Positions 1 through 29,191 of a DNA stretch of 32,487 bases are shown in pieces. The notes below the pieces were generated by a model. It did no database searches. It saw only the letters and a list, made by a program, of their open reading frames with translations, and was not told the DNA's origin. The translations under genes and the position numbers were made by a program. Each line of letters begins with the position of its first letter. Position 1 is the stretch's first letter. The stretch is taken from the NCBI GenBank assembly GCA_005772955.1, contig SXID01000149.1, positions 86,594 to 119,080 on the forward strand, in the 5' to 3' direction. This stretch comes from Planctomycetia bacterium (GTDB lineage Bacteria > Planctomycetota > Planctomycetia > Gemmatales > Gemmataceae).

Positions 1-388
1 CTTCGATCCGCAGCGCGCGGAGTGTCCGCGTGACCGGTGCCGCGGTCAGCGCTTGCGCGAACCGGTTGGTCAGCCACTCGACGCGCAGTTCGGTGAGATA
101 TCCGCGTGCCCACCAGTGTTCGGCCCGCGGTCCCGAATCGTCGCGGTCGAGTAAGTGCGGTGCGAGGTCGCCGAGCCACTCGCGTTCGTGCGCCACAAGC
201 AGTTCGGCTTCACGCGTTTTGAGGATGTCACGCTCATCCATTGAGCGAGAACCGTCTTCGAGGGCAAGCTGAACTTGCATGAACTCACCACGCGGGTCGT
301 CTTGTTCCGCGAGGTAATCGGCGTAAGCGCACCACCCCGCGAGGTCGTCCGGGTTCGCGGCCAGTGAGTTCTCGAATGCTTCGCGCAT
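1..388 (-). CDS. TIGR02996-domain protein, probably leucine-rich-repeat type (3' end outside window)
   Basis: The 129 visible residues begin MREAFENSLAANPDD and continue with YADYLAEQDDPRGEFMQVQ. This is the signature of the TIGR02996 repeat-companion domain, a paralogous N-terminal domain known mainly from Gemmata-type planctomycetes and often followed by leucine-rich repeats. The end of the visible part (TRTLRALRIE) looks like the beginning of such repeats, but the window stops there. The ATG at 388 has a GAGGTG ribosome site seven bases upstream and lies only 14 bp after the stop of the STM4011-type radical SAM gene, so it is very likely the fourth gene of that operon. In Salmonella the corresponding cassette includes STM4015, which I recall as a leucine-rich-repeat protein, so this gene may fill the same slot; that is inference. 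No enzymatic role can be assigned. Confidence 0.8.
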   Translation of the reverse strand, partial: MREAFENSLAANPDDLAGWCAYADYLAEQDDPRGEFMQVQLALEDGSRSMDERDILKTREAELLVAHEREWLGDLAPHLLDRDDSGPRAEHWWARGYLTELRVEWLTNRFAQALTAAPVTRTLRALRIE

Positions 389-402
389 GTGACACCTCGC
401 TT

Positions 403-1353
403 CTAGCGGTAGCCGTCGGGGATGCGCTCGAGCACACCCGCGCCGAACGTGTCGTACAGCTTCAACCGGTTCAGGTGGACGTACCCGATGTGGCACCCGC
501 ATGTGTCGTTCGTGCAGAGCCGCTCTTGCAGACACGCCTCGAAGTTGGTGTCGTAGATGTTGCCAATCGGTTCCTTGATGAAGTGACACCGGCGCACGGT
601 GCCGTCGCCGTCCACCGAGATGACTCTACTCCCGGCTCGGCACGGTTGGTCGCGGCTCGCGTGGTACTCATTGTTCAACGGGAACAAGTGGTCAATCCGC
701 GTGAGGGAGTCGATCATTTCCGGCGTGTAGTAAGGCGAAGAACCCCTCCCCCCAACCCCCTCCCCTAAGAAGGGAGGGGGAGCAGAAGTCTGAAGCCCCT
801 CCCTTCTTAGGGGAGGGGTTGGGGAGGGGTTGCTTCCCCGCTTGAAGGCGTTCACCCAGAGGTACACGTCACGCGGCAACTCGCTCCGAAGTGCGGCGAG
901 CTCTGCGAGATGCTCCTTCAACCCAACCACGCCCACGCTGAACCGCACGCCGCGAGCGATCAGTTCGCGGCACTTCGCGAGGAACCGGTCGCGGGTCGTT
1001 TCGGACGGGTGGAACGTACACCATAGCGCCAACTTCGACTTGTCGCACGCTTCGACCCAATCGAGCTTGCACGAAATGTTTGTCTGAATCGCGGCCTTCG
1101 TTACGTGCGGCATCTGCGTGAGTGCCGCGAGCGCGTCTTGATACCACTTGCGAACGAGCGCTTCGCCCCACGGTGTAAACAGCACGCCGACGCGGTCCGC
1201 GGTGCGTGTGCCGACCCACGCGACGAACTGTTCCAGACATTCGCGGTCGTGCGCGAGTTGTTCGCTCGTTTCGGTGCGCTTTGCGAACGGGCAGTAGTCG
1301 CACGCGTAGTTGCAACTTGACAGCGGCCCGCGATAGAGGATCGAGAGGTTCAT
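403..1353 (-). CDS. STM4011-family radical SAM protein
   Basis: A 316-residue radical SAM enzyme. The cluster motif is CNYACDYC (C14-x3-C18-x2-C21), which binds the 4Fe-4S cluster that cleaves S-adenosylmethionine. The C-terminus has a SPASM/twitch-like set of cysteines (about residues 249-300: CRAGSRV, VRRCHF, EACLQE, CTNDTCGC) suggesting one or more auxiliary Fe-S clusters, as in peptide-modifying enzymes. The ATG at 1353 overlaps the stop of the upstream gene (ATGA). The longer open frame upstream is only the shadow of that gene. Compared with what the fold needs, there is an insertion of about 33 residues (about 173-206) coded by a palindromic repeat at 737-836, and the frame stays open through it. 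Substrate unknown. The family call rests on motif, size and the STM4012/STM4013-type neighbours. Confidence 0.85.
   Translation of the reverse strand: MNLSILYRGPLSSCNYACDYCPFAKRTETSEQLAHDRECLEQFVAWVGTRTADRVGVLFTPWGEALVRKWYQDALAALTQMPHVTKAAIQTNISCKLDWVEACDKSKLALWCTFHPSETTRDRFLAKCRELIARGVRFSVGVVGLKEHLAELAALRSELPRDVYLWVNAFKRGSNPSPTPPLRREGLQTSAPPPFLGEGVGGRGSSPYYTPEMIDSLTRIDHLFPLNNEYHASRDQPCRAGSRVISVDGDGTVRRCHFIKEPIGNIYDTNFEACLQERLCTNDTCGCHIGYVHLNRLKLYDTFGAGVLERIPDGYR
737..836. repeat. Palindromic repeat inserted in frame inside the radical SAM gene
   Basis: About 100 bp. The left arm, from GAAGAACCCCTCCCCCCAAC onward, is repeated in inverse orientation on the right, ending GGGGAGGGGTTGCTTC. Arms are about 43 bp with a loop of roughly 11 bp. 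Its inner part (CCTCCCCTAAGAAGGGAGGG) is itself palindromic. On the gene's strand it codes a proline/glycine/arginine-rich stretch (PSPTPPLRREGL ... PPPFLGEGVGGRG) with no stop. A longer relative lies at 28412-28553 inside hpnE. Confidence 0.9.
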
Positions 1354-2669
1354 TTCGCTTCGTACTCCGCCATGAGCGCGCGCACGCGGGCCGAGAAGAA
1401 CCACGGCCCGAGCGCGTCGGAGCGTTCCAGTCCGAGCGGCGTGGGAACCCACCGGCCCGCGCCGAACGCGAGCAACCCCGCCTCCGCGAACGCGTGCGAC
1501 GCGGGGAAGTCGTCGACCGCTTCGGTGCCGAATCGCGCGGTGTAGTGGGACACGTCCAGCCCTTCGACGTTCAGGATCGACTGAATCAGGTAGCGTCGTT
1601 GTTGCTCGTCGCGGTCGAGTGCGAAGCCGTGGTCGGCGGTTTGAAGTTCGTCGCGGGTGCGAGAGAGGTAGTCCGCGATGATTTCCTTCACGCTCTTGGG
1701 CTGAACCGCGTAGTCGAGCGAGTAGTGCAGGCTTCGCGTATACGACCGCGCGCCACAACCGAGGCCGATCATGCCGTCTTCCTGGCAGCAGTAGTTCGGC
1801 ACAACCGGCGGGCTTACGCCGCGCCGGAACATCCGCATCGATACCTGGTCGTAACCGGACGCGAGCAGCACGTCGCGCCCTTCGCGGTAGCACGCTAGCC
1901 GCGTATCGTCCCATGCCTTGTGCGACCGACCAAGACCGGTCAGCGGTCGCACGTACAGCGGGTACAGGTACAGCTCTTCCGGTTCGTAGCGGAGCGCTTC
2001 CCGGAGTGAATACAACCACGTTTCGACCGTCTGACCGGGAAGGCCGTAGATGAGATCGAGGTTGAGTGTGGGGAAGTTCGCTCGCGTGAGCAGTGACAAC
2101 GCGGTGTCAACGTCCGCACGTGATTGCGGGCGCCCGGAGTTAGCCGCTTCCGCTTCGATGAAAGACTGCACACCGATACTCACGCGATCCACGGCGCGAG
2201 ACTTCAGCAGCGATACCTTCTCCGCGGTCAGCGTATCGGGCGAGGTCTCCACACCGACCGAGACCGCGTGCGGATTCACGCCCATCACTTGCTCGGCGAT
2301 GTCGAACACTTCGCCCAGTTCGGATTCGCTCAGAAAGGTTGGCGTTCCGCCGCCGATCGCGAAACGGGCGAAGCGCGCGTCCGGGATCGCGTCGCGCACG
2401 GCTTCGGCCTGCCGGCGGAGTGCGTCGAGGTAGAACGCGACGAGATTCTGCTTCGGGTTCGCGGTGGTGAACAGGTTGCAGAACCCGCACCGCATCGTGC
2501 AGAACGGCACGTGAACATAGAGGAACAGCCCGGTTCGCGCTTCGTCTCGCCACACCTCGCGCAGCGGTTTCGGCGTGAACGGTCGGTACGCGGTCTTGTG
2601 CGGGTACGCGTACACGTACGCGCGATACGCGCTCCCTTGCAACACCGGGTGCAGTTCCGTTGCGATCAT
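1350..2669 (-). CDS. STM4012-family radical SAM protein (HemN-like)
   Basis: A 439-residue radical SAM protein of the coproporphyrinogen-dehydrogenase-like (HemN/HemW) branch. The motif is VPFCTMRCGFCNLF with cysteines at 57, 61 and 64. FAIGGGTPTFL (the GGGTP motif that contacts SAM), ETSPDTLT, VSIGVQSF, LDLIYGLPGQT and GLGCGARSYTR follow in the order usual for HemN-like proteins. The opening residues (LQGSAYRAYVYAYPHKTAYRP) are typical of the STM4012 family rather than of true HemN. The start at 2669 is chosen because it gives a 4-bp ATGA overlap with the upstream hydrolase gene and because residues before it look like read-through of that gene. The stop overlaps the next start in the same way. 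It is unlikely to act in heme synthesis; within the cassette it probably modifies the same unknown substrate as its neighbours. Confidence 0.87.
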   Translation of the reverse strand: MIATELHPVLQGSAYRAYVYAYPHKTAYRPFTPKPLREVWRDEARTGLFLYVHVPFCTMRCGFCNLFTTANPKQNLVAFYLDALRRQAEAVRDAIPDARFARFAIGGGTPTFLSESELGEVFDIAEQVMGVNPHAVSVGVETSPDTLTAEKVSLLKSRAVDRVSIGVQSFIEAEAANSGRPQSRADVDTALSLLTRANFPTLNLDLIYGLPGQTVETWLYSLREALRYEPEELYLYPLYVRPLTGLGRSHKAWDDTRLACYREGRDVLLASGYDQVSMRMFRRGVSPPVVPNYCCQEDGMIGLGCGARSYTRSLHYSLDYAVQPKSVKEIIADYLSRTRDELQTADHGFALDRDEQQRRYLIQSILNVEGLDVSHYTARFGTEAVDDFPASHAFAEAGLLAFGAGRWVPTPLGLERSDALGPWFFSARVRALMAEYEAK

Positions 2670-3475
2670 TCGTTCCCCTGCTGTAACACAAACTCCGCGT
2701 ACGGCACGTCCCACACGACGGGGTGCGCGAGTCGGTGCCCGGTGTGGCCGTCTTCACCGTACGCGGTACCGTGGTCCGAGCAGATCACCGCGAGCCATGG
2801 CCCGCGCTTCCGCAGGCCCGCGAACAACCGGCCGAGTTCGCCGTCCACGTACTCCAGCGCCGCGGCGTGCGACTCGATGGTATCGTCAGTTGCGCCGTTC
2901 AGGTAGAAGCAGTTCGGCTGGTGAATCGCGGATATGTTCACGAAGAAGAACACGCGCTGTGTTGGCGGAAGTTCCGCGACTCGGCGCAGCGCGAGATTCA
3001 CTTGATGCTCGGTTGATCGCGAGTCGGTGACGCCGAGTTCCGGGGACCAGTGGCTTTCGTCAAACAACCCCGGTAGCACGTTGCCGAGCGGCGTGAGTTG
3101 GTTGAAGAACCCCACACCGCCGATGCAGATCGTGTGATACCCACTCGCGCGAAAGCCCGCGACGATGTCGGGCGCGTCGAACACTGCGGTTCCTTCACTG
3201 GTCGTTTCACTTCCAGGGAAGCGCAGCGCGAACAGTCTGGGGTGCTTTCCTGGCGCTGTCGGCGTGGGCAGGAACCCCGCGAAGAACGCACTGTGCGCGG
3301 CGAACGTGAAACTGCCGGGCGTGTGCCGCTTCTCCCACCCGCCTGCGGGCAGAATCGCGCTCAGGTTCGGTGTGCGGCACCGCGCGTGCAGGTCCGCGGC
3401 CACGTCGTAACGCAGCGTGTCGAGCGTGACAACCAGCACGTCGTGTGTTCCGATCAACCGACTCGCGTTCAGCAT
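2666..3475 (-). CDS. STM4013-family hydrolase (alkaline phosphatase superfamily)
   Basis: A 269-residue hydrolase of the alkaline phosphatase/sulfatase superfamily. Metal-site motifs are visible: VVTLDTLRYD near the N-terminus, TPGSFTFAAHSAFFAGF (position of the catalytic Thr/Ser), and SDHGTAYGEDGHTGHR near the C-terminus (Asp-His and His ligands). No signal peptide is seen, so it should be cytoplasmic. The frame is open up to a GTG at 3544 with a GGGGTG upstream of it, which is an alternative start; I prefer the ATG at 3475 because MLNASRLIGTHDVLVVTLDTL matches where family members begin, although its ribosome site is poor. It heads the operon with the two radical SAM genes and is divergent from lhgO, whose start is 80 bp away. 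The reaction is unknown; phosphoester or sulfate-ester hydrolysis is what the fold suggests. Confidence 0.83.
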   Translation of the reverse strand: MLNASRLIGTHDVLVVTLDTLRYDVAADLHARCRTPNLSAILPAGGWEKRHTPGSFTFAAHSAFFAGFLPTPTAPGKHPRLFALRFPGSETTSEGTAVFDAPDIVAGFRASGYHTICIGGVGFFNQLTPLGNVLPGLFDESHWSPELGVTDSRSTEHQVNLALRRVAELPPTQRVFFFVNISAIHQPNCFYLNGATDDTIESHAAALEYVDGELGRLFAGLRKRGPWLAVICSDHGTAYGEDGHTGHRLAHPVVWDVPYAEFVLQQGNE

Positions 3476-3555: not shown

Positions 3556-4749
3556 ATGCACACCACAGACGTACTCATCATCGGTGGCGGGATCGTCGGC
3601 CTCGGAACCGGGCTTGCGCTCGCGGGTCGCGCGACGGTGACCGTCGTGGAAGCCGAACACCGCGTCGCGCAGCACCAGACCGGCCACAACAGCGGCGTGA
3701 TTCACTCTGGTCTCTACTACAAGCCGGGTTCAGAGAAAGCTCGCAACTGTGCCGCGGGTCGCGAACTGATGTACCAGTTCTGCGAAGAGAACGGCGTGCC
3801 GCACGACCGTTGCGGCAAACTCGTCGTCGCAACCGATAATCGAGAGGTAAAGGCGCTGGCCGAACTCGAACGCCGCGGCGCCGCGAACGGCCTTCGTGGT
3901 ATCGAGCGCCTGAGCGCCGAGCAGATGCGCGAGATCGAACCGCACGTGAGAGGTGTCGCGGCGCTTCGCGTACCCGAAACCGGCATCGTGAACTACAAGG
4001 CGGTTTCAGAGGTATACGCACGGAAGATCGCGGAAGCGGGAGGCAGCGTTCGCACCGACACGAAGTTCCTCGGCTGCACGCGCGAGCTGGGCGCGATTAA
4101 CGCGGAGACAACCGCTGGCCCGATTCGCGCGAAACTGTTGGTGAACTGTGCCGGGTTGTACTCGGATCGTGTCGCGCGGCTGTGCGGCGTCGAACCCGGT
4201 GTGCGGATCGTGCCGTTTCGCGGTGAGTATTACGAACTAAAGCCGAAGGCCGAGCACCTCTGTAAACACCTTATCTACCCGGTGCCGGACGCGAGCCTGC
4301 CATTTCTAGGCGTCCACTTCACGCGCATGATCGGTGGCGGGGTCGAGTGCGGTCCGAACGCGGTCCTCGCGTTCCGGCGCGACGGTTACCGCTTGCGCGA
4401 CATCAGCGCAAGCGACATGTTGGAACTCGCGCGCTACGTCGGCTTCTGGAAGATGGCGCGCCGGTTCTGGTGGACCGGCGCGCACGAGATGTACCGCTCC
4501 GCGAGCAGGCGGGCGTTCTGGCACGCACTGCGGAAGCTCATCCCCGAAGTGTCGTTTCACGATCTGGTTCGTGCCGGTGCCGGTGTTCGCGCGCAAGCAG
4601 TCGCGCCGGACGGCAAGCTCGTGGACGATTTCTTCATCCGCCAGGCGAACCGCATGATTCACGTCCTGAACGCGCCTTCGCCCGCGGCAACGGCGTCGAT
4701 TGCGATTGGACGAAGCATTGCGGAGATGGTGACGAAGGAACTCGTTTAG
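3556..4749 (+). CDS. lhgO: L-2-hydroxyglutarate oxidase
   Basis: A 397-residue FAD-dependent oxidase of the DAO family that oxidises L-2-hydroxyglutarate to 2-oxoglutarate, a metabolite-repair and lysine-catabolism step; electrons go to quinone or oxygen depending on the enzyme. The N-terminus has the dinucleotide fold VLIIGGGIVGLGTGLAL (residues 6-22). HNSGVIHSGLYYKPGS (about 44-59), VPETGIVNY, LLVNCAGLYSDRVA, PFRGEYYEL and GVHFTRMIGGGVECGPNA are family hallmarks. The C-terminal HVLNAPSPAATASIAIG is the usual second FAD contact. Length fits the family (about 395-400). It is divergent from the radical SAM operon and monocistronic by context. No clear ribosome site precedes the ATG, so the start is supported by the immediate dinucleotide fold. 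Confidence 0.95.
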   Translation: MHTTDVLIIGGGIVGLGTGLALAGRATVTVVEAEHRVAQHQTGHNSGVIHSGLYYKPGSEKARNCAAGRELMYQFCEENGVPHDRCGKLVVATDNREVKALAELERRGAANGLRGIERLSAEQMREIEPHVRGVAALRVPETGIVNYKAVSEVYARKIAEAGGSVRTDTKFLGCTRELGAINAETTAGPIRAKLLVNCAGLYSDRVARLCGVEPGVRIVPFRGEYYELKPKAEHLCKHLIYPVPDASLPFLGVHFTRMIGGGVECGPNAVLAFRRDGYRLRDISASDMLELARYVGFWKMARRFWWTGAHEMYRSASRRAFWHALRKLIPEVSFHDLVRAGAGVRAQAVAPDGKLVDDFFIRQANRMIHVLNAPSPAATASIAIGRSIAEMVTKELV

Positions 4750-27695: not shown

Positions 27696-29191
27696 TGCGG
27701 AACTCACAATCCGCAATCGTCATTGGCGGTGGCCTCGCGGGTCTCGCCGCCGCAGTGAGCTTGGCGGAGCGCGGGTTTAAGGTCGCGGTGCTGGAATCGC
27801 GCGCGCGGCTCGGCGGGCGCGCCGGGTCGTTCACCGACCCCGCAACCGGCCAGATGGTCGATGCGTGCCAGCACGTGAGCATGGGCTGCTGCACGAATTT
27901 CGCGCACTTCCTCCGCACCATCGGAGTCGATCACCTCCTGTCGCCGCAGCCGAAGCTGTACTTCGTGACGCCGGACCGCCGGACTAGCGTGTTCAAGGCG
28001 GACCCGTGGCCGGCTCCGTTCCACCTCGGCCGTGCGCTGATGTCTGCGCACTACCTCACGCCATTGGACAAACTTCGCGTGGCCTACGGCCTGGCCCGGA
28101 TGCTCTGGGAACGCCCGGACGCGGACCCGCCGCTCTTGCCGTGGCTGAAGGCGCACCGCCAGAATCAGCGCACCATCGAGCGGTTCTGGGCAATCGTGTT
28201 GACGAGCGCGCTGAACGAGACGGTGGATCGCGTTGGCCTGAAGTACGCGCGCAAGGTGTTCCGCGACGGCTTCGTGCGGCACCGTGACGGGTTCACGGTC
28301 CACGTGCCGGCGGTGCCCCTCGGCCGGCTCTACGGCGACGAACTCCGCGCGTGGCTTTCTTCGCGTGGGGTGGAGGTGCGGGAGAACGCTGGAGTGAAGC
28401 GATTGGTGATGGAAGAACCTCTCCCCCCAACCCCCTCCCCTAAGAAGGGAGGGGGAGCCGGAGGTTTGTCTTTGCCCTCTCCCTTTGCGGGAGAGGGACT
28501 GAAGGCTCCCCCTCCCTTCTCAGGGGAGGGGGCTGGGGGGAGGGGTTGTCTTCGAGCCATCGAACTGCGCGACGGCTCCACCCTGTCCGCCGACTGGTAC
28601 GTGTTGGCGGTGCCGTTCGACCGTGTCACGGATCTGCTGCCGGAAGAACTCGCACGCGAGCCTTACTTCGCCAACGCGAAGAACCTCACGCCGTCGCCCA
28701 TCACGAGCGTTCATCTGTGGTTCGACCGCCCCGTGATGAAGCTCCCGCACGCGGTCCTCATCGACTGCCTGGGTCAGTGGGCGTTCGATCGCGGTGAGGT
28801 CGCACCAGGTGAGTTTTATCTTCAGGTGGTGGTGAGCGCTGCACGTGACCTGAAGGGCTTGGGCCGCGACGAGATCCAGCGGCTCATCGTGGAGGAACTC
28901 GGGAAGGTGTTTCCGCCGGTCGCGCAAGCGAAGTTGCTTCGTGCAAAGGTGATAACCGAACACACCGCGACGTTCAGCGCGGTTCCCGGCGTGGACCGTT
29001 GGCGGCCGGTTCAGGGGTCACCGGTGGCGAACCTCGCGGTGGCCGGCGACTGGACCCTGACTGGGTGGCCCGCGACAATGGAGGGTGCTGTCCGGAGCGG
29101 CTACCTCGCGGCCGAAACGATTCTGGAGCGAGCCGGGCAGCCAGCGAAACTGGTGCAGCCGGAGTTATCGGAGTCGCCACGCTCCGCGTGA
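27695..29191 (+). CDS. hpnE: Hydroxysqualene dehydroxylase HpnE
   Basis: A 498-residue FAD-dependent amine-oxidase-fold protein that reduces hydroxysqualene to squalene in the HpnCDE route from farnesyl diphosphate. SAIVIGGGLAGLAAAVSLAE (6-25) is the FAD fold; LGGRAGSFTDPATG follows. VDACQHVSMGCCTNFAHFL, FWAIVLTSALNETVDRV and the C-terminal AVAGDWTLTGWPATMEGAVR match HpnE. ATG 27695 overlaps the previous stop. About 47 residues (about 239-285: PLPPTPSPKKGGGAGG ... PPPFSGEGAGGRG) are coded by a palindromic repeat and have no counterpart in normal HpnE (about 420-460 residues). The last residues (SPRSA) and the stop lie in a second repeat. The insert sits at a surface-loop position between NAGVKRLVMEE and LRAIELRDGS, so the enzyme could still work. 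Confidence 0.9.
   Translation: MRNSQSAIVIGGGLAGLAAAVSLAERGFKVAVLESRARLGGRAGSFTDPATGQMVDACQHVSMGCCTNFAHFLRTIGVDHLLSPQPKLYFVTPDRRTSVFKADPWPAPFHLGRALMSAHYLTPLDKLRVAYGLARMLWERPDADPPLLPWLKAHRQNQRTIERFWAIVLTSALNETVDRVGLKYARKVFRDGFVRHRDGFTVHVPAVPLGRLYGDELRAWLSSRGVEVRENAGVKRLVMEEPLPPTPSPKKGGGAGGLSLPSPFAGEGLKAPPPFSGEGAGGRGCLRAIELRDGSTLSADWYVLAVPFDRVTDLLPEELAREPYFANAKNLTPSPITSVHLWFDRPVMKLPHAVLIDCLGQWAFDRGEVAPGEFYLQVVVSAARDLKGLGRDEIQRLIVEELGKVFPPVAQAKLLRAKVITEHTATFSAVPGVDRWRPVQGSPVANLAVAGDWTLTGWPATMEGAVRSGYLAAETILERAGQPAKLVQPELSESPRSA
28412..28553. repeat. Palindromic repeat inserted in frame inside hpnE
   Basis: About 142 bp. Left arm CCCCCCAACCCCCTCCCCTA then AGAAGGGAGGGGGAGCC; the right arm is its inverse with few changes (arms near 48 bp). 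The middle holds CCCTCTCCCTTTGCGGGAGA, the core of the intergenic elements at 8753 and 23463. It adds about 47 codons without a stop. Confidence 0.9.

Follow-up and report, generated by a model that had tools for sequence, protein, structure and literature searches.

The stretch of DNA analysed here, referred to as the window (32,487 nucleotides, positions 86,594 to 119,080 of contig SXID01000149.1 from a Gemmataceae bacterium of the class Planctomycetia), carries at its left edge part of an STM4011–STM4015 gene cluster, and we consider it rather likely that the cluster enzymes act on a leucine-rich-repeat (LRR) protein encoded beside them and modify its C-terminal glutamate. This reading is carried by the gene content of the cluster, by a glutamate that closes nearly every intact LRR protein of such clusters and the acidic tail in front of it, by the predicted fold and conserved residues of the ligase STM4014, which resemble those of LysX, ArgX and RimK, and by the exchange of the LRR gene and STM4014 as a pair. 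The repeat protein is probably what the cluster enzymes act on, because its near-constant glutamate end is of the kind used by the closest known relatives of the ligase.

Once the region to the left of the window edge is added, all five families of the STM4011–STM4015 cluster are present at this locus (L001) of the draft genome, which comprises 5.9 Mb in 278 contigs. Six genes run on the minus strand in the order STM4013, STM4012, STM4011, TIGR02996+LRR, WGR+TIGR02996+LRR and STM4014:

2666..3475, minus strand: STM4013-family hydrolase of the alkaline-phosphatase fold, 269 amino acids, ATG start (NF038075, 415 bits, cutoff 250)
1350..2669, minus strand: STM4012-family HemN-like radical S-adenosylmethionine (SAM) protein, 439 amino acids (NF006067, 603 bits, cutoff 380)
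403..1353, minus strand: STM4011-family radical SAM protein with extra C-terminal cysteines, 316 amino acids (NF038073, 389 bits, cutoff 200)
1..388, minus strand: first 129 codons of the TIGR02996+LRR gene, an STM4015 homologue (TIGR02996, 43.6 bits, cutoff 29)
L001 11119..9695, minus strand, left of the window edge: WGR+TIGR02996+LRR gene, 474 amino acids, C-terminus GDPE
L001 9698..8547, minus strand, left of the window: STM4014, ATP-grasp ligase, 383 amino acids (246 bits, cutoff 175)

The TIGR02996+LRR gene leaves the window at its left edge and is complete at L001 12382..11156 (408 amino acids, C-terminus GREGDWE). Families were assigned with NCBIfam models, whose curated cutoffs STM4011, STM4012, STM4013 and STM4014 each exceed. 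The ATGA at 2669-2666 holds both the start of STM4012 and the stop of STM4013, a second 4-bp overlap (ATGA at 1353-1350) joins STM4012 to STM4011, and the ATG of the TIGR02996 gene, at 388, lies 14 bases past the STM4011 stop; the GTG start of STM4014 overlaps the stop of the preceding LRR gene by 4 bp (GTGA), and a GDSL hydrolase follows about 110 bp beyond STM4014. The three-enzyme order, the first two overlaps, the 14-bp gap and the four family calls had already been given in a preliminary description made from the letters of the window, and the coordinates and scores bear them out. That description had also suggested a check for an STM4014-type gene left of position 1 and for leucine-rich repeats in the TIGR02996 gene, and both are present, the repeats as LRR_6 (1.6e-07, Pfam).

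The LRR proteins were drawn from the best 80 of at least 516 confirmed loci together with the Planctomycetota loci, which is not a random sample. Among the 97 distinct LRR open reading frames (ORFs) scoring at least 200, 96 are closed and 89 have a C-terminal glutamate. Six rows were left out, one open-ended (L157), two WGR proteins without LRRs (L097, L148) and three that look truncated or frameshifted (L063, the second copy of L098, L153); none of the six has the terminal glutamate. The intact distinct LRR proteins thus end in glutamate in 89 of 91 cases, as do 20 of 20 representatives at less than 50% identity; both LRR proteins of the window genome share this end with the classic STM4015 members. 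Eight ORFs scoring below 200 were also set aside, one of which (L065, a cut-off reading frame) has the terminal glutamate. All six annotated STM4015 proteins, taken from five of 13 matching plasmid records (Salmonella, Bacteroides, Paenibacillus, Deinococcus), end in the same way, and so do all five of the strongly scoring TIGR02996-LRR homologues (287-563 bits), not used before, that lie on stretches lacking STM4011; those of G008 and G030 belong to assemblies in many pieces, so that they may be cut off from their cluster by the end of a contig. Of six weaker TIGR02996-LRR paralogues (72-164 bits) none has the glutamate, their last residues being T, L, I, S, A and D. As controls, the residue closes 2/91 STM4011, 1/84 STM4012, 4/75 STM4013 and 1/72 STM4014 proteins; the genome has 42 TIGR02996 domain matches, only two of them in this cluster, and among the readable TIGR02996 proteins elsewhere (30 loci were given for the 42 matches) glutamate is terminal in 1 of 25.

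The tail is otherwise variable, with ends such as RYVAVSE, YYVEIGE and RPILHAE in classic members and GDYE, GDWE and ADIE in Gemmataceae. Over the 24 positions before the last one glutamate makes up 11-13% of residues, with a maximum of 53% at any single position, and the next best-conserved columns of the tail reach 60/91 and 59/91. The net charge of the tail is -5.5 per 25 residues versus -1.2 in the LRR part, and 89 of 91 tails stand at -2 or less. In a structural model of the LRR protein (seven sequences) with a predicted local distance difference test score (pLDDT) of 81.8, the last 30-40 residues drop to 64-31. An origin of the terminal glutamate as a by-product of ATGA gene overlap was considered and is ruled out by the varied codons (GAG 54, GAA 35) and stops (TGA 37, TAA 31, TAG 23) and by the 54 of 91 LRR genes that end without an overlap of this type. 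Nor does the overlap set the residue, because STM4012, which has the same type of overlap in the window, so rarely ends in glutamate.

The STM4014 profile finds LysX best in the PDB (4e-07; 1uc8, 1uc9, 3vpd) and then RimK; 3vpd is labelled an S6 modification protein in the profile search and titled LysX in the structure searches. The structure predicted for the L104 orthologue (pLDDT 92.9) has its best match in ArgX complexed with LysW (Foldseek 2.7e-11; Z 22.6, root-mean-square deviation 2.9, 272 residues), and its eight highest Z-scores (VIA) all belong to ArgX, LysX or RimK; the cycloserine synthetase DcsG and the graspetide ligase PsnB take the sixth and seventh Foldseek ranks. Invariant in 42 of 42 STM4014 proteins are K147, K190, D268, R270, D336, E350 and N352 (L104 numbering), of which R270 and N352 align with R189 and N262 of E. 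coli RimK, R189 being counted from the alignment. According to excerpts of PMC10092738, R189 and N262 of Pseudomonas RimK contact the last glutamate of the bound chain; a numbering shared by the two RimK proteins is assumed. STM4014 itself is mildly basic (+2.5, mean of 73).

The STM4015 model (NF038076) matches the two LRR proteins of the window genome with 53.3 and 55.4 bits (E 2e-14 and 5e-15), below its cutoff of 275 bits and over about 110 of its 290 positions in the C-terminal part; in the 408-residue protein the match covers profile positions 167-276. Because its C-terminal part matches in this way, the TIGR02996 protein is a diverged STM4015 homologue, and both LRR proteins of the window genome stand as divergent homologues outside the STM4015 equivalog. 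Both LRR genes of Myxococcus xanthus encode WGR, TIGR02996 and a nearly full-length STM4015 part (223 and 236 bits), and over this species and another myxobacterium such fusions score 209-236 bits, again under the cutoff; judged from their domain make-up, they bridge the classic STM4015 and the Gemmataceae forms. WGR domains are present on several STM4015 proteins. The Pfam scan of the LRR proteins returned LRR and WGR alone above cutoff, and the LysW family is not among the NCBIfam matches of the cluster proteins. The preliminary description had proposed that a planctomycete-specific companion replaces STM4015 as scaffold or substrate. A scaffold or substrate role is supported, but an unrelated substitute is ruled out by the STM4015 model match and the myxobacterial fusions. 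As a separate observation on WGR proteins, a DNA ligase with two fused WGR domains adjoins STM4011 in Obscuribacter (L148 8910-11180), and a similar WGR protein is found at L097 8906-11053.

In the scheme that we infer, STM4015-type proteins, the TIGR02996-LRR ones included, would present a flexible acidic tail ending in a nearly invariant glutamate, and STM4014 would activate a carboxylate of this residue with ATP and couple to it an amine-bearing group. This group may be an amino acid, by analogy with RimK, or a different building block, by analogy with LysX. Once tethered, it would be remodelled by the two radical SAM enzymes, STM4012 and STM4011, and STM4013, a putative metal-dependent hydrolase of the alkaline-phosphatase superfamily with threonine at the place of the nucleophile, would trim the group or remove a phosphate. 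The product may be released, as from LysW and pearlin carriers, or kept on the protein, as with RimK and tubulin ligase; the several LRR copies of some genomes are no less compatible with protein modification than with a carrier.

The CxxxCxxC motif of STM4012 (C56, C60, C63) is present in 84/84 proteins, and the nearest solved structures are HemN (1olt) and the methyltransferase NocN (9p2u); in the second cluster copy of genome G348 (L074 728-2175) STM4012 is split into three ORFs. In the 13 rows of alignment A1, STM4011 has the invariant radical SAM cysteines C14, C18 and C21 (13/13) and five further invariant cysteines, C206, C224, C248, C253 and C255; among PDB sequences it has no relative at E 0.01. 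STM4013 matches Pfam Sulfatase (5e-07) and, in the PDB, has weak matches only, to phosphodiesterases and sulfatases. Its residues F56, T57, H61, D234, H235, H247 and H251 are present in 75/75 homologues and D19 in 74/75. By the patterns of the alkaline-phosphatase superfamily, which we take to apply here, T57 would be the nucleophile, and D19, D234, H235, H247 and H251 are candidate metal ligands.

Among 102 genomes of the order, 14 have STM4011, and a scan of GTDB genomes gave at least 516 stretches encoding relatives, so the gene set is not a chance one. The best 80 of these at least 516 loci come from Bacteroidota, Actinomycetota, Chloroflexota, Verrucomicrobiota, Myxococcota, Acidobacteriota, Melainabacteria and Pseudomonadota, among others, and plasmid records extend the range to Deinococcota and Bacillota; in one Pseudomonadota sample 1 of 398 genomes has the cluster, namely the centre genome of the sample. 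TIGR02996-LRR genes stand between STM4011 and STM4014 in 7 of the 14 genomes, this one included. LRR copies number one, two or four per locus, the TIGR02996-LRR gene being single in L021, L023 and L026, double in L001 and L032 and fourfold in L022 and L031; TIGR02996 is above cutoff in one scanned protein each of L021, L022, L023, L026 and L031. The expectation of the preliminary description that relatives keep the TIGR02996 gene beside the three enzymes therefore holds for these seven genomes and fails for the others, of which three have a classic STM4015 (L024, L027, L029), one (G074, a single contig) has an LRR+STM4014 pair about 0.9 Mb from STM4013-4012-4011, two (G008, G030) have the LRR gene on a different contig of a fragmented assembly, and in one (G007) no LRR gene was recognised.

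The phylogenies, all trees being of the quick kind, point to a separate history of the LRR gene and STM4014. The STM4014 tree, built from 70 loci, unites all seven TIGR02996 clusters in a single long-branched clade with full support, whose closest neighbours are two Myxococcota (support 93), and places the classic Gemmataceae STM4014 proteins elsewhere; for STM4011, one starred clade holds these seven clusters intermingled with two of the three classic clusters of Gemmataceae. In subset trees of 21 or 22 rows, the TIGR02996 clusters together with L024 and L027 occupy one side of a branch with support of 87 for STM4011, 100 for STM4012 and 98.6 for STM4013, where the group has 8 rows instead of 9. 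The exchange argument rests on this larger clade, because it is rejected for STM4014 only (approximately unbiased test, p-AU 0.0004); for STM4011, STM4012 and STM4013 a narrower clade, restricted to the TIGR02996 clusters, survives the test (p-AU 0.08, 0.87 and 0.06). Since the trees conflict and the pair of G074 lies so far from the other genes, the LRR gene and STM4014 are taken to travel together, and in Gemmataceae the two were exchanged as a pair, STM4011-4013 not.

Several points weigh against modification at the terminal glutamate. The non-ligase human PPIP5K2 reaches Z 21.3 with the STM4014 model, within about 1.3 of the best match, and the arginine and ExN residues in question are, in PMC4431377, described as common to many amide-forming ATP-grasp enzymes; fold and residues alone are therefore no proof of the acceptor. 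STM4014 scores 19.2 bits with both LysX_arch (cutoff 275.6) and rimK_fam (cutoff 143.4). Two Herpetosiphon LRR paralogues, mutual orthologues from two strains, each the outermost one among four copies, end in alanine, and in G074 a divergent TIGR02996-LRR-like gene with C-terminal serine (L238 3739-5115; 127 bits, below the threshold), which covers most of the LRR profile, stands between the glutamate-ending LRR gene and STM4014. No recurrent release peptidase was identified among 443 neighbour ORFs of 69 loci, most of whose families are unannotated, and no biochemistry was found for any STM4011–STM4015 member. Finally, the conserved terminal residue could be a docking signal. The glutamate and the acidic tail would then be a handle for STM4014 or another member, and the true substrate some other protein or a small molecule in free form. 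Partner binding is usual for LRR proteins, the WGR and TIGR02996 fusions suggest further ones, and the exchange of the LRR gene with STM4014 fits binding as well as catalysis. We nevertheless regard docking alone as unlikely: the constraint on the last residue far exceeds that on the residues before it, which is more like a reacting group than a docking peptide, and a C-terminal glutamate of this kind is what the closest ligases of solved structure use.

The SPASM-like cysteines of STM4011, the rank of PsnB among the fold matches and the several LRR copies per cluster would also suit a pathway of the type of ribosomally synthesised and post-translationally modified peptides, in which the tail is a core peptide, cross-linked by the radical SAM enzymes, closed by STM4014 to a macrocyclic ester or amide as in graspetides, and cut off. 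This appears quite improbable, as at none of the last 25 positions are K, S, T or C present in a majority of the 91 proteins, the tail has no near-invariant residue besides the glutamate, and no peptidase was identified among the neighbours. A graspetide core in particular was rejected, the 91 tails having no conserved K/S/T/C acceptor position. The stepwise modification of one free substrate, in which the TIGR02996 protein takes the place of STM4015 as scaffold, as the preliminary description had it, agrees with the gene order and enzyme classes, which are as described there; it is highly improbable given that the supposed replacement belongs among the STM4015 homologues, and it leaves the conserved terminal glutamate unexplained.

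The gene set is that of the STM4011–STM4015 families (NF038073, NF006067, NF038075, NF038074, NF038076), with the four enzyme families above cutoff and contiguous with the LRR genes, and the annotations of a Salmonella plasmid, of Deinococcus and of Paenibacillus list this set too. The window genome differs from the classic clusters in having a duplicated LRR gene, both copies with TIGR02996 and one with WGR as well, which match STM4015 in its C-terminal part alone and below cutoff, and in that its STM4014 falls in a separate long-branched clade. Tubulin-tyrosine ligase provides a comparable ATP-grasp extension of a protein C-terminus, that of tubulin, and we know of no radical SAM partners of RimK. 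LysW-type systems use a kinase, a reductase and an aminotransferase as modifying enzymes, in place of which radical SAM enzymes are found here. Their loading ligase, LysX or ArgX, shares the ATP-grasp fold of STM4014; the protein carrying the glutamate here is, however, an LRR protein and not a small LysW domain, and no release peptidase is recognised. The likeness of these amino-group carriers (LysW, Vzb22) to the LRR proteins lies in the C-terminal glutamate, which in the carriers is loaded at its gamma-carboxylate, and in an acidic recognition surface; the carriers are described in PMC9303977. RimK, which in the excerpted text of PMC10092738 adds glutamates to the C-terminus of ribosomal protein S6, resembles STM4014 as an ATP-grasp ligase and in the conserved arginine and ExN contacts, although STM4014 stays far below the RimK cutoff. 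Pearlins (3-thiaglutamate, 3-thiahomoleucine), in the relevant passages of PMC9303977, are likewise small products, assembled with the help of a radical SAM enzyme at the C-terminal end of a ribosomally made carrier peptide, but they are loaded by a tRNA-dependent PEARL and released by a protease, neither of which is recognised here. The same logic would fit the present cluster, with the radical SAM enzymes as modifiers. As a tentative possibility, it may be a third type of protein-tethered biosynthesis beside LysW carriers and pearlins, found in at least 10 phyla, in which a small molecule, perhaps cofactor-like, is made by two radical SAM enzymes on the glutamate of an LRR protein after LysX-like loading.

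A further feature of the window lies within STM4011:

745..829, no strand: dispersed GC-rich palindromic element, in frame in STM4011 (inverted repeat, 39-nt arms, 85% complementary)

The insertion lengthens STM4011 by about 30 residues and is found at the same site in L032; it is absent from L021 and L022. Its half-site occurs 123 times in the genome (control pattern 0), in the window also at 28438-28454 and 28509-28525. The preliminary description had included neither this palindrome nor the second LRR gene and STM4014, the last two lying beyond its sequence. On the other side of STM4013, beginning 80 bp from it, a divergent FAD-dependent oxidoreductase, by eye 2-hydroxyglutarate-oxidase-like, occupies window positions 3556-4749 on the plus strand.

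The recurrent neighbour families identified are DUF6745 with a small histidine-rich protein and one HAD-hydrolase-like family. DUF6745 homologues are found in 33 of 109 loci, 3 of these being duplicate contigs (an example is L211 6884-8181), and a protein of about 100-120 amino acids with GHxH and HEEH-like motifs recurs with them on STM4011-4015 stretches of several phyla; the two form an accessory module, which was not found in the seven TIGR02996-type clusters. The HAD-like family is a neighbour at 12 loci (for example L154 4864-5814 and L134 5068-5763), and HAD hydrolases are also present at L208 6831-7565 and L211 8282-9109; neighbours of the Salmonella and Deinococcus clusters are annotated HAD and gave no BLAST match to the HAD-like neighbour family.

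STM4015 is named in a gene table in PMC2784778, and a sigma-54 binding site is listed at STM4013 in PMC3844500. Among open-licence papers no functional work on the STM4011-4015 genes was found, and the family names, TIGR02996 and DUF6745 led to no paper; judged by listings, no paper on the combination of radical SAM, ATP-grasp, LRR and WGR proteins, or on a carrier with C-terminal glutamate, pointed to the cluster. The graspetide survey PMC8939145 does not mention leucine-rich, LRR, WGR or LysX. The STM4011-4015 genes are carried by very different bacteria and yet are uncharacterised. The terminal glutamate, together with the cluster's own LysX/RimK-like ligase and two radical SAM enzymes, points to the last peptide of the LRR protein, and if a group is indeed built on this glutamate, the cluster would be a new small-molecule pathway on a carrier protein or a new modification of protein ends with radical chemistry.

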